A stretch of DNA of 30,715 nt from IMG/VR virus record IMGVR_UViG_3300044527_000414, positions 1-30,715 of that record; one strand, written 5' to 3'. The position numbers and the translations under genes were made by a program. Shown here in pieces: positions 9 to 30,715 of this stretch (position 1 is the stretch's first letter; each line of letters starts with the position of its first letter). The DNA comes from a virus. The notes beneath the pieces were generated by a model. The model was not told the origin of the DNA and searched no databases. It was given only the letters and a program-made list of their open reading frames with translations.

Positions 9-479
9 ATGATGAACAGAGATTTTTTTGCGTGTGTTATGTGGGCTTTGCTTATGCTTTTGATAGGCTTAAGTTTTGGTCATTCATGCAATAAAGGAAC
101 TGCAATAAAAAGCGATACAAGCATTGTGACAAGGATTGTTGAACGCCCCGTATATATTAAAGACACAATAAAAGTAAAAAGCGTGCAATTGAAATACAAA
201 GATTATTTTCATACAGATACCCTCGATATTCCGTGCAATGATACCAACTTTATAGCTCAAGCGGATAGCGTAATCACGTCCACAAATGACACGATCAACA
301 TGGCGTTCAATTACACAAACCGCAGGGGCTATTTTTCTTTAGTTTATAGGCCACGTCCAGATTCAATACAAGTGCAAACAATCACGATACCAGTTGAAGC
401 TAAACAGAACTACGGTTTTTTGGTTGGTTCGTTTGGGCTTGGTTTGGTTTTGGGTGTTGTGTCAGGAGCGAAAAGATAA
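9..479 (+). CDS. Membrane-anchored phage protein, spanin-like
   Basis: This is a 156-residue protein with a hydrophobic N-terminal segment (about residues 5-23). A charged/polar central region of about 100 residues follows, then a glycine-rich hydrophobic C-terminus (about residues 135-153) ending in AKR. It could span or anchor at the inner membrane with its middle in the periplasm. The Cys after the first segment (GHSC) does not form a lipobox. Bacteroidota phages often carry such a protein near lysis or packaging genes, and I infer a spanin-like or accessory lysis role because the holin and endolysin lie at the other end of the window. The stop overlaps the terminase small subunit start (TAATG). 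Two adjacent ATGs (9 and 12) could each be the start. The function is inferred from topology only. Confidence 0.6.
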   Translation: MMNRDFFACVMWALLMLLIGLSFGHSCNKGTAIKSDTSIVTRIVERPVYIKDTIKVKSVQLKYKDYFHTDTLDIPCNDTNFIAQADSVITSTNDTINMAFNYTNRRGYFSLVYRPRPDSIQVQTITIPVEAKQNYGFLVGSFGLGLVLGVVSGAKR

Positions 480-17396: not shown

Positions 17397-17613
17397 GAAA
17401 GTTACCTACACAAAAGTAGATGGTAAAATATTCTCTATATATACCGAAAAGTTAAGCACGATTGAAGCACTTATTCAGGATGCTAATATAAGTCATATTG
17501 AATGCTTTTTTGTTACACAAAGAGAAAAACAAATATTGTGCAAATTTTTTGAAAAAAAATATCTTGTGCAAAACCTTGAATTCATGCGGTCAGTAAGGGT
17601 ATATAAAAAATAA
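17395..17613 (+). CDS. Small hypothetical protein
   Basis: This is a 72-residue basic protein beginning MKVTYTKVDGKIFSIYTEKL. It is rich in Lys, Phe and Ile with a helical middle (TIEALIQDANIS) and EKQILCKFFEKKYLVQ. I do not recognise it. No clear ribosome site precedes the ATG, which overlaps the start codon of the divergent minus-strand frame, so one of the two may not be used as drawn. It ends 12 nt before the first early promoter. Confidence 0.5.
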   Translation: MKVTYTKVDGKIFSIYTEKLSTIEALIQDANISHIECFFVTQREKQILCKFFEKKYLVQNLEFMRSVRVYKK

Positions 17614-17625
17614 ATAAAAAAAAGT

Positions 17626-17656
17626 TTTGCAAGTGGTTAAAAAAGCCTTATATTTG
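17626..17656 (+). promoter_or_regulatory. Bacteroidota-type promoter, copy 1
   Basis: TTTG (17626-17629), a 19-nt spacer, and TATATTTG (17649-17656) match the Bacteroidota housekeeping consensus of TTTG near -33 and TAnnTTTG near -7. The TTTG element and its flanks lie in a 28-bp sequence repeated exactly at 17902-17929. The promoter sits between a stop codon and the gene at 17696, leaving a leader of about 30-40 nt. Confidence 0.85.
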
Positions 17657-17695: not shown

Positions 17696-17899
17696 ATGAA
17701 AAGCTCAACAATATTAACAACAACACTAGGTAGAACAAAGAAAATTGTTCTTGCAAGAAATACAGAATGGGGGGTCAGTCCTTATTCATATATGAACCAC
17801 AAACAAGCAGCAAAAAAAGTAGAAGAATTGAAAGCAATGGGCATCGATGCTTGGTTTAGCGAGTACGATCACGTAAAGTATATTTATGTAAATCAATAA
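17696..17899 (+). CDS. Small early hypothetical protein
   Basis: This is a 67-residue protein, MKSSTILTTTLGRTKK then a helical part (MNHKQAAKKVEELKAMGIDAWFSEYD) ending in strands (VKYIYVNQ). The 'A.kkveeLk..G..aw' pattern is like small alpha-beta domains that bind peptides or nucleic acids, but no family is clear. The ATG at 17696 is chosen because GGAG lies seven to ten bases upstream and promoter copy 1 ends 40 nt before it; the same frame is open further upstream through the promoter. It is expected among the first genes expressed and could act on the host, which is an inference from position. Confidence 0.65.
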   Translation: MKSSTILTTTLGRTKKIVLARNTEWGVSPYSYMNHKQAAKKVEELKAMGIDAWFSEYDHVKYIYVNQ

Positions 17900-17910
17900 A
17901 TAAAAAAAGT

Positions 17911-17942
17911 TTTGCAAGTGGTTAAAAAATATTATAATTTTG
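17911..17942 (+). promoter_or_regulatory. Bacteroidota-type promoter, copy 2
   Basis: TTTG (17911-17914), a 20-nt spacer and TAATTTTG (17935-17942) fit the same consensus as copy 1. The 28 bases 17902-17929 are identical to 17617-17644, covering an A7 run, the -33 TTTG and the upstream half of the spacer. The shared sequence ends before the -7 element. It starts just after a stop codon and serves the gene at 17969 and the replication genes behind it. Confidence 0.83.
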
Positions 17943-28580: not shown

Positions 28581-29186
28581 ATGAGCAAACTTGCTGTGAT
28601 CTTAACCACCAACAAAGCCCGTGAAGGCGTTGGTCAGTATTCCGCTTTGTATTACGATTTGTTTGTGATTGATTACGAATCAGACGGGACGTACAAATAC
28701 CAAGCAATCAAGAAGCTTATTGAAGATCGTGATATGCTAAATACTTATGACTACTTCTGGTTTCCAGATTATGATATAAAAATAAATGATGCTGACTTAA
28801 GAAAATTAGTTAAGTTGACAAGGGCAAGCGGATTCGATTTAAGTCAACCAAGTTTGTCAAGTGATTCTTTTGCAAGTTGGGAACTTACAAAGCACGTGCC
28901 AAATAGCTTAACACGTGAAACGAATTTTGTCGAGATCATGTGCCCTTTGTTTACAAGTGTTTTTTTAAAAGAGATGCTGTGGACTTTTGATTTAAACTTT
29001 TCGGGCTGGGGCTTGGATCATCTTTGGTTCGCCATGAGTGGTAATTACAAGCTTGGAATCATTGACGCCGTGCAAGTTTCACACGTGAAGCCCGTGAGTT
29101 CACATACGTGGATATTGCCAAACGGAAAGACAGCGCAAGAAGAAATGCAAGATTTATTAATAGAATTTGGAATTGGACATGAGTAA
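28581..29186 (+). CDS. DUF707-like glycosyltransferase-type protein
   Basis: This is a 201-residue protein. The order of motifs fits the DUF707 family: YFWFPDYDI (58-66, replacing the family's acidic DDD-like site), then LSQPSLS (87-93), TNFVEIMCPLF (114-124), SGWGLDHLW (141-149) and GIIDAVQVSHVKPV (159-172). DUF707 proteins have a GT-A-like look and occur in polysaccharide loci, so a glycosyltransferase role is inferred from family context rather than proved. It is separated from the first GT gene by 20 kb but only two genes from the GT7 enzyme. No signal peptide or membrane segment is visible. The stop overlaps the SSB-like gene by eight bases. Confidence 0.78.
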   Translation: MSKLAVILTTNKAREGVGQYSALYYDLFVIDYESDGTYKYQAIKKLIEDRDMLNTYDYFWFPDYDIKINDADLRKLVKLTRASGFDLSQPSLSSDSFASWELTKHVPNSLTRETNFVEIMCPLFTSVFLKEMLWTFDLNFSGWGLDHLWFAMSGNYKLGIIDAVQVSHVKPVSSHTWILPNGKTAQEEMQDLLIEFGIGHE

Positions 29187-29496: not shown

Positions 29497-29716
29497 TTCC
29501 ATGCCGTTCTTTGATTGGCAAAAATATAAGACAGGTTACAAAACCAAAGTAATATACTATTCAAGTGAATGCTATTGCACTTTAATCCCGTACGATAACG
29601 GCTGGAAATTCACGATCTTTTCAGAAGCCAACAAAGCAATTATCAAATATCGGTTTAGACAATGTACATTGCAAGAAGCTAAAGACAAAGCGGAGTACTA
29701 CTCAATATGCGATTAG
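29474..29716 (+). CDS. Small hypothetical protein
   Basis: This is an 80-residue basic protein with a Tyr/Lys-rich N-terminal half (FDWQKYKTGYKTKVIYYSSE) and alternating strands, then a short helix (TLQEAKDKAEYYSI). I recognise no family. It overlaps the SSB-like gene by 23 nt and the GT7 gene by 10 nt, so it is translated together with them and is likely real. It may help one of these neighbours. Confidence 0.6.
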   Translation: MPKLYRFDSMPFFDWQKYKTGYKTKVIYYSSECYCTLIPYDNGWKFTIFSEANKAIIKYRFRQCTLQEAKDKAEYYSICD

Positions 29717-30333
29717 CAATCATTGTACCTTTTCGAGATAGGCACGAACACTTAAAAAAGTTTATCCCGTACATGAGCACGTACTTGACAATGCAAGGCC
29801 ACGACTTCGAGATTCTTATTGTTGAGCAAGAGCACGGCAAACCGTTCAACCGTGGCAAACTGTGCAACGTTGGCTATAATTCAGTACAAGCCGATTACTA
29901 CGTTTTTCACGATGTAGACATGTTGCCAATTACCGCCGACTATTCAGCGTGCTTAAGCCCAACGCACTTGGTTGCAAGTGCAACGCAATTTGAAAAGGGT
30001 ATTCCATACGATTTATATTTTGGGGGCGTGACGATGTTTCCGAATGCAGACTTTATGCAAGTGAACGGATTTTCAAATGAGTTCTGGGGATGGGGTTCCG
30101 AAGATGACGATCTAATAAGAAGGTGTGCAAATGAAAAGATGGTTATTACAAGACGTGAGGGCGGTGTGTTTGAAAGTTTGGATCATGCAATTAACATTGA
30201 TGCAGAAAGCGCAAAAGCAAATTACGAGCTTTATGTAAAGGGCACCAGCGACGGTTTAACTACATTAGAATTCAAACCGAAATATAAACAAATATTAACT
30301 TCAAAAGTTTCAATTTTACAAGTATCTATTTAA
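29707..30333 (+). CDS. GT7 beta-1,4-galactosyltransferase-like enzyme
   Basis: This is a 208-residue protein that looks like the catalytic core of animal-type beta-1,4-galactosyltransferases. In order: IIVPFRDRHEHL (5-16), FNRGKLCNVGY (47-57), the metal site HDVD (68-71), YFGGV (104-108), NGFSNEFWGWGSEDDD (120-135) and a possible third metal ligand LDH (158-160). These correspond to FNR-KL-NVG, DVD, FGGV, NGF-N-WGWGGEDDD and a late His of family GT7. It lacks the N-terminal membrane anchor of the eukaryotic enzymes and so should be cytoplasmic. It would add Gal, GalNAc or a related sugar to an unknown acceptor. All catalytic motifs look intact. Confidence 0.92.
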   Translation: MRLAIIVPFRDRHEHLKKFIPYMSTYLTMQGHDFEILIVEQEHGKPFNRGKLCNVGYNSVQADYYVFHDVDMLPITADYSACLSPTHLVASATQFEKGIPYDLYFGGVTMFPNADFMQVNGFSNEFWGWGSEDDDLIRRCANEKMVITRREGGVFESLDHAINIDAESAKANYELYVKGTSDGLTTLEFKPKYKQILTSKVSILQVSI

Positions 30334-30342
30334 GGTTTTTTT

Positions 30343-30606
30343 ATGCAAGCTCTTAAGACTTTTTTGCCCTTATTTTTGGGCGCATTTCTTGCGATCTTTT
30401 TTACCATTAATTCAAATTGGCAGTTCAGCACTTTTGCATTTGGCTTAAGCAAATACGCACTTGCAATTGGTTGCGCTTGGTTTGTAGATTCATTATTAAT
30501 TAAAGAGGCTAACACACGTGAAATCATATCTTCAGATCCTATTGCTTACAGCTTGTTTCTTACCGCCAATATACTCACAGCCGCTTTATGCTTCTCGCAG
30601 TCATAA
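30343..30606 (+). CDS. Putative holin
   Basis: This is an 87-residue hydrophobic protein. Membrane segments are likely at about 7-22 (FLPLFLGAFLAIFFTI), 33-50 (more moderate) and 68-84 (AYSLFLTANILTAALCF). Size, topology and place before an exported lysin fit a holin that makes the inner-membrane lesion at the end of the cycle. AAGG precedes the ATG. The endolysin start (30518) lies inside this gene in another frame, so the lysin signal sequence and the holin's last membrane segment share DNA. Confidence 0.68.
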   Translation: MQALKTFLPLFLGAFLAIFFTINSNWQFSTFAFGLSKYALAIGCAWFVDSLLIKEANTREIISSDPIAYSLFLTANILTAALCFSQS

Positions 30607-30715
30607 GACGTACGAAATTGCACGGGGCTTTATTGGCACCAAAGAAGTTGGCAACAATGGCGGGTACTGGGTGCAAAGATTCCAGAAAGTTTCGAACGCT
30701 CCAAAGGGTTCGCCA
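30518..30715 (+). CDS. Exported endolysin / peptidase, truncated by window end
   Basis: Only the first 66 codons are in view. It begins MKSYLQILLLTACFLPPIYS, a hydrophobic export signal; L-T-A-C at residues 10-13 would fit a lipobox, though the segment is short. The mature start TYEIARGFIGTKEVGNNGGYWVQRFQ then KVSNAPKGSP matches the 'A...iGt.E..gNnG..V..f......gsPWC' opening of CHAP/TIGR02594-type peptidoglycan hydrolases. The catalytic Cys would lie just past the window. GTG at 30518 is the first possible start after an in-frame stop (30497-30499), with AGAGG upstream. It overlaps the holin gene by 89 nt. Confidence 0.78.
   Translation, partial: MKSYLQILLLTACFLPPIYSQPLYASRSHKTYEIARGFIGTKEVGNNGGYWVQRFQKVSNAPKGSP

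Follow-up and report, generated by a model that had tools for sequence, protein, structure and literature searches.

Oenococcus phage fOg44 infects a Gram-positive host. Its endolysin, Lys44, carries a cleavable N-terminal Sec signal and is exported independently of the holin, which is left with the timing of lysis, and the available text of the source treats the holin as an established trigger or timer of a pre-exported endolysin in fOg44, P1 and phage 21 (PMC6116005). In the systems of P1 (Lyz) and phage 21 (R and S), as far as the same text describes them, the endolysin brings an N-terminal export segment of its own, and the trigger is a small membrane protein (PMC6116005). Export signals that lie inside another lysis gene, in a different frame, are described for P2 LysB/LysC and for the lambda spanins Rz/Rz1, and overlaps of 70, 116 and 155 bp are among the examples of overlapped spanin genes given in the part of the source available (PMC6139136).

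The viral locus studied here would share with fOg44 a Sec signal and holin-independent export, and with P1 and phage 21 an endolysin whose own export segment precedes the action of a small membrane protein. Unlike in fOg44, the candidate signal is dual-coded in the gene of an upstream membrane protein, the enzyme is of the CHAP type and the inferred host belongs to Bacteroidota/Ignavibacteriota; unlike in the SAR/pinholin systems, the leader has sites resembling those of signal peptidase I. In the spanins, an o-spanin lipoprotein is encoded inside the i-spanin, whereas here the final membrane segment of a holin-like gene would harbour the signal of an endolysin. A holin/endolysin overlap also occurs in Lactococcus phage P008, and the available part of its description does not mention an export signal within it. 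What is new here is the genetic layout; its nearest precedent is the overlapped spanin genes, as the available text presents them (PMC6139136). A search of the open-licence literature found no paper on a holin whose last membrane segment also codes for the export signal of an endolysin.

Layout, gene identity and conservation of the overlap

The window analysed here is a whole IMG/VR record of 30,715 bases. In its list of open reading frames, a gene for a holin-like membrane protein of 87 aa with three hydrophobic segments occupies positions 30343-30606 of the plus strand and ends with a TAA stop codon at 30604-30606. On the same strand, the frame of a CHAP lysin gene opens at a GTG codon (30518-30520) and continues to the end of the contig (30518-30715), which falls inside the gene after 66 codons. 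The sequence-only reading had placed this start 89 nt before the holin stop, and the coordinates 30518 and 30606 bear out the figure: the shared stretch, 30518-30606, measures 89 nt with the stop included. Throughout the overlap, the second position of each lysin codon is the wobble position of a holin codon. In the holin frame, the shared DNA encodes the third and last hydrophobic segment (residues 67-85 by sequence, 30541-30597; helix 66-85 in the structural model) and, in the other frame, a lysin leader that reads MKSYLQILLLTACFLPPIYSQPLYASRSHK..., of which residues 1-25 (30518-30592) form the putative signal sequence. Alignment with full-length relatives puts the start of the lysin catalytic region, YEIARGFIGTKEVGNNGG..., at 30608-30715.

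The sequence-only reading had also called for the rest of the lysin gene. The window and the record end inside it, the two ends of the window have no repeat of 25 nt or longer in common, and the lysin cannot be completed from the window itself; the full gene, of 182 codons or more, was obtained from eleven relatives on viral contigs that are 55-91% identical over the matched stretch. The CHAP family PF05257 scores above its curated cut-off of 26 in all three full-length viral relatives scanned (40.5, 35.8 and 36.7 bits) and does not match the 66-aa fragment of the window; of three more distant relatives, L120 passes (27.3) and L119 and L133 stay below the cut-off (21.1 and 20.2). Both relatives scanned against PHROG match endolysins (E 1.6e-15 and 2.4e-12), and two relatives score 48.0 and 39.9 bits against TIGR02594 of NCBIfam, short of its cut-off of 70.55. 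Residues C68, H128, E144 and N146, which we take to be the catalytic Cys, the His and the acidic/Asn residues of CHAP, are invariant in 35 aligned lysins and lie beyond the contig end in the window. Among named phages, the lysin of the relative L002 matches 68 records, every one below 60% identity.

A profile search with the holin-like protein returned 56 viral loci, from which L068 and L114-L116 were dropped, their holin gene running off the contig. In the window and the remaining 52 loci the layout is identical: the lysin frame begins with a GTG and shares exactly 89 nt with the holin gene, stop included (53/53 sequences). These loci are in part near-duplicates, 39 of them differing in the last 180 nt and forming 12 clusters at 90% identity; the holin-like proteins, of which 26 distinct ones were aligned, are 59-99% identical to the window copy. 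A search that starts from the lysin, and that covers in large part the same contigs, finds the overlap in 37 of 40 loci; L055 is cut before the lysin start, and the overlap is absent from the two most distant lysin relatives of the 40, L059 and L060 (33-34% identity). Given its conservation in 53 of 53 sequences, the 89-nt overlap is more than chance. This conservation supports the earlier proposal that one stretch of DNA encodes both the last membrane segment of the holin and the lysin signal; export itself is predicted from the sequence.

Several other features of the window were recorded. Upstream of the lysis pair lie a DUF707 gene (28581-29186) and a galactosyltransferase-type gene (Glyco_transf_7, 29707-30333), both on the plus strand, whose products possibly modify the host surface or phage proteins. 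At 9-479 (+), just 5' of the terminase genes, a 156-aa protein combines a hydrophobic N-terminus containing a Cys with a C-terminal hydrophobic segment and, by eye, looks like a unimolecular spanin; proteins laid out in a similar way directly follow the lysin in L133 (5525-6037) and L120 (5591-6088). A direct repeat of 45 nt, 84% identical between its copies at 17600-17644 and 17885-17929, holds in each copy the TTG start of a small listed ORF (17627 and 17912) and is possibly a repeated leader or promoter region.

Start codon and nature of the lysin leader

A Shine-Dalgarno-like AGAGG (30504-30508, plus strand) lies within holin codons, 9 nt 5' of the lysin GTG. Among the 39 distinct sequences, 29 columns within the last 59 holin codons were eligible for comparison, having an invariant residue with degenerate codons, and the codon is invariant at just two of them: the Glu GAG that supplies the Shine-Dalgarno sequence and the Arg CGT that supplies the GTG, each in 39/39. 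In 14 window genes, GAG accounts for 19% of Glu codons and CGT for 26% of Arg codons. At the same distance from the start, GAGG is present in all 39 sequences and GGAGG in 33 of them. The sequence-only reading had named a cytoplasmic lysin starting at a later codon as the finding that would speak against it. In this alternative, translation would begin further along, the leader would be a side effect of the holin's coding sequence, and the enzyme would be released by the holin as in canonical lysis. Such a start is excluded in 17 of 41 distinct lysins, which have no ATG, GTG or TTG between the lysin GTG and the catalytic Cys, and we reject it on this count; the next in-frame start in the window clade, a TTG at codon 9, falls inside the signal itself. 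Although the window frame does contain this TTG and a GTG at codon 52, and DNA that codes for a membrane segment is often hydrophobic when read in another frame (mean of 1.19 in the recodings described below), we consider a cytoplasmic lysin highly improbable. Because the codons of the start and of the Shine-Dalgarno sequence are frozen, and 17 of 41 lysins offer no alternative, there is strong evidence that initiation would take place at the GTG. An in-frame ATG is present at lysin codon 11 in L069, L070, L107, L111 and L112, and the lysin ATG of L119-L122, four loci from species genomes, occupies the place of codon 11 when counted from the holin stop; the position of the lysin start may have moved between those four loci and the window family.

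The geometry of the overlap allows the leader to be separated to some extent from an echo of the holin frame, since the wobble base of the holin is the second base of the lysin codon, and the lysin residue can therefore be tuned by synonymous changes in the holin. A wobble T, which gives hydrophobic lysin codons, is found in 54% of the overlap codons (536 codons, for residues with four or more codons) vs 30% elsewhere in the holin gene and 29% across window genes, and it is higher in the overlap in all 12 cluster representatives. Peak hydrophobicity of the leaders (best 12-residue window on the Kyte-Doolittle scale) spans 1.7-2.7, with an observed mean of 2.25 vs 1.19 in random synonymous recodings with an open lysin frame, a frame that 5-23% of the recodings keep open. 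The median P per sequence in this test is 0.055, and the tests were run on related sequences and so are not independent of one another. Taken by itself, the window does not give a significant result (P = 0.10 among recodings with an open frame); the evidence for a signal draws its strength from conservation and not from the window's own hydrophobicity. Synonymous diversity is lower in the overlap than outside it for 4-fold residues (0.28 vs 0.49) and 3-fold residues (0.44 vs 0.54), about equal for 2-fold residues (0.23 vs 0.19) and higher for 6-fold residues (0.56 vs 0.41), and synonymous constraint in the overlap is clear only for the 4-fold class.

Taken together, the features of the leader make it probable that the lysin is exported through Sec and cleaved, with a membrane protein timing lysis. 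A K or R occurs within lysin residues 2-6 in 39/39 sequences, and a permissive pattern of the signal peptidase I type is found between residues 15 and 28 in 41/41 distinct lysins; by this permissive rule the basic n-region, hydrophobic h-region and small residues at -3 and -1 of a Sec substrate of signal peptidase I are all present. Candidate sites in the window lie after residue 20 (IYS↓Q) and after residue 25 (LYA↓S). Ala stands at -1 of the candidate site in 31 of the 41 lysins and another residue in 10, and the leader of L122 ends in VNPQK, without a good cleavage site. A model of the relative L061 has a low-confidence helix at residues 2-19 of the leader.

The LTAC motif that the sequence-only reading had noticed is present at lysin residues 10-13 (30545-30556, plus strand), and the lipid-anchored enzyme that it had suggested did not hold as a trait of the family, because the strict lipobox is confined to six of 41 distinct lysins, all of the window clade, and four of 41 have no Cys in residues 6-22. 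Signal peptidase II would in that case cut before Cys13 and leave the enzyme anchored by lipid. The fit of LTAC to the strict lipobox in the window and five other distinct lysins speaks for such processing, as does LFGC in 10 further lysins, which brings the loose PROSITE-like motif to 16/41. Even the loose motif is missing in 25/41, and Cys13 does not close the hydrophobic stretch but lies within it, hydrophobic residues continuing past it; it also comes earlier than residues 15-35, the range set by the PROSITE rule. Moreover, the holin codons readily give rise to a Cys at residues 9-18: in 38 of 39 cases, 24-46% of the open recodings contain one. We therefore give little weight to lipid anchoring, which is quite improbable, and LTAC is probably not a functional lipobox.

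The main rival of a cleaved Sec signal is a SAR-like leader, uncut, which would anchor an inactive enzyme in the membrane until the holin collapses the membrane potential, as for P1 Lyz and phage 21 R. It would solve the problem of premature activity, and nothing that we found accounts for a secreted CHAP enzyme staying inactive before lysis, which counts against the Sec-export model. The moderate hydrophobicity of the leaders, with Thr, Ser, Pro and Gln within the segment, is consistent with a SAR domain, and a Cys in residues 6-22, present in 37/41, recalls P1 Lyz, which is reportedly activated by a thiol of its own SAR segment. Known SAR enzymes are of the lysozyme type, however, and we know of no CHAP SAR lysin; the plausible peptidase I sites in all 41 lysins by the permissive rule, the Ala↓Ser or Ala↓Gln ends in many relatives and the four lysins that lack the Cys likewise argue against an uncut anchor. 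We regard a SAR-type lysin as unlikely, though deserving of attention, and prefer a cleaved Sec signal.

The overlapping membrane protein and the proposed course of lysis

An AlphaFold2 model of the 87-aa protein (mean pLDDT 71.6) has helices at residues 2-20, 30-52, 58-64 and 66-85. From its charges, read by eye, the positive-inside rule would place the N-terminus in and the C-terminus out; the topology of lambda S is unlike this arrangement. No known holin family was matched: the protein and its relatives L009 and L112 have no holin match in Pfam or PHROGs, nor does the relative L002 in NCBIfam, and tblastn of the holin-like protein against named phages gave no match at E 0.1. Weak Pfam matches to YiiD_C in 5/9 holins of the window clade (best E 0.015) were taken as chance. 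In all 10 divergent relatives scanned, DUF350 (PF03994) matches below its cut-off of 26 bits (17.3-25.4 bits, E 1.6e-5 to 5e-3), and the window copy has no match to it. A comparison of profiles by hhalign found no match between E. coli YjfL and the holin-like family, whose alignment has a low diversity (Neff 1.46). In the available text of a PSP survey, DUF350 is an uncharacterised membrane protein of the YjfL family (PMC11237479).

The lysin is followed in 11/11 loci (L002-L012) by two more small membrane genes, whose products are about 65 aa and about 100 aa long. By eye in these loci, the longer protein has one hydrophobic segment and the shorter has two (...YW.EPTP...RR..GA...). Either could be the holin, and it is quite possible, if on the low side of even, that the 87-aa protein is a DUF350-like accessory and that one of these two is the holin. 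The constant presence of both genes, the DUF350 matches below the cut-off, the absence of a holin family match for the 87-aa protein and a search of solved structures with its model that found nothing alike (best E 4.5) all favour an accessory role. Against it stand the tight linkage to the lysin, conserved over large divergence, and the fact that holins are diverse and many of them match no model. An accessory role is compatible with export of the lysin, and its probability does not add to those of the other readings.

We propose that the two genes form a linked lysis pair. Ribosomes would start the CHAP lysin at the GTG, guided by a Shine-Dalgarno sequence written in holin codons, and lysin residues 1 to 20-25 would serve as a Sec signal whose codons lie out of frame with those for the final membrane segment of the holin-like protein. 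Signal peptidase I would most likely cut the leader, and the lysin would need no holin hole to arrive in the periplasm. Lysis may then be timed by a small membrane protein, for which the overlapping one is the simplest candidate and which would dissipate the membrane potential and so activate the waiting enzyme. In this scheme the overlap, the start site, the conserved hydrophobic leader and the CHAP family are observed, and we infer export and cleavage, translational coupling, the role of the membrane protein and the activation step. That the holin would trigger lysis rather than release the enzyme, as the sequence-only reading had suggested, seems a reasonable inference.

Relatives in Bacteroidota and Ignavibacteriota and their implications

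The best relatives in species genomes are L119-L122, on MAG contigs binned as Melioribacter, Ignavibacteria and Bacteroidota, with 41-48% identity. All four combine a related membrane gene, an overlap of 59 nt and an ATG lysin start, with leaders such as MRFSFLVCALSLLLLSSTVSAQKH, ...SSTVSA↓QKH. L120 has neighbours that, by our own reading, are phage head- and tail-like. From these best genome matches we infer that the host of the window phage probably belongs to the Bacteroidota/Ignavibacteriota group.

Hydrophobic leaders also occur on nine more distant CHAP genes, from Pedobacter, Sphingobacterium, Sinomicrobium and Rhodocytophaga, which share sequence with a different membrane gene in the other register; the overlap measures 82 nt in eight of them and 73 nt in Rhodocytophaga. 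In the three loci of Sphingobacterium faecale the frame is longer and has its CHAP region a long way downstream. The membrane gene of the 82-nt loci (L132, L133, L141, L144, L146, L148, L153 and L154) has a hydrophobic C-terminus, and in 8/8 the M-A-T that begins the CHAP frame falls on its residues W-Q-Q/H. In either register, the overlap is present in at least 13 of 68 species-genome loci; most of the other 55 come from other phyla. A leader is not always accompanied by an overlap, because some loci (e.g. L162, L168 and L169) have a hydrophobic leader and no overlapping gene was found there. Of 296 genomes sampled from the phylum to which the Pedobacter genome belongs, 13 have a CHAP match at E 1e-15 or better, at 15 loci. 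Five of these 15 have the overlap (L187, L188, L189, L200 and L201), L187 being the locus of L133 and L189 being equal to L122 in the stretch compared. L199 probably has it as well, with a DUF350-like neighbour; L190-L192, L195 and L196 have neither a leader nor an overlapping membrane gene, and L193, L194, L197 and L198, which could not be judged, stand outside this tally.

The two registers suggest that the overlap may have arisen separately in each. We put forward, as a tentative generalisation, that phages and mobile elements of Bacteroidota/Ignavibacteriota may have placed the export signal of a CHAP endolysin repeatedly within the last membrane segment of an upstream membrane gene, in at least two registers, and that in the phage branch the signal would lie largely in wobble bases and the DUF350-like partner would be an undescribed type of holin acting on a pre-exported enzyme. 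A literature search found no lysis study of this kind for phages of the Bacteroidota group. Too-late start calls are documented for overlapped spanin genes in the available text of the source (PMC6139136), and gene callers may likewise start lysins such as this one too late and hide the signal. The locus offers a clean natural case in which one stretch of DNA meets two membrane-targeting constraints and the start and ribosome site are the only two frozen codons. Our results suggest that holin-independent export of endolysins may be common in phages of the Bacteroidota group.
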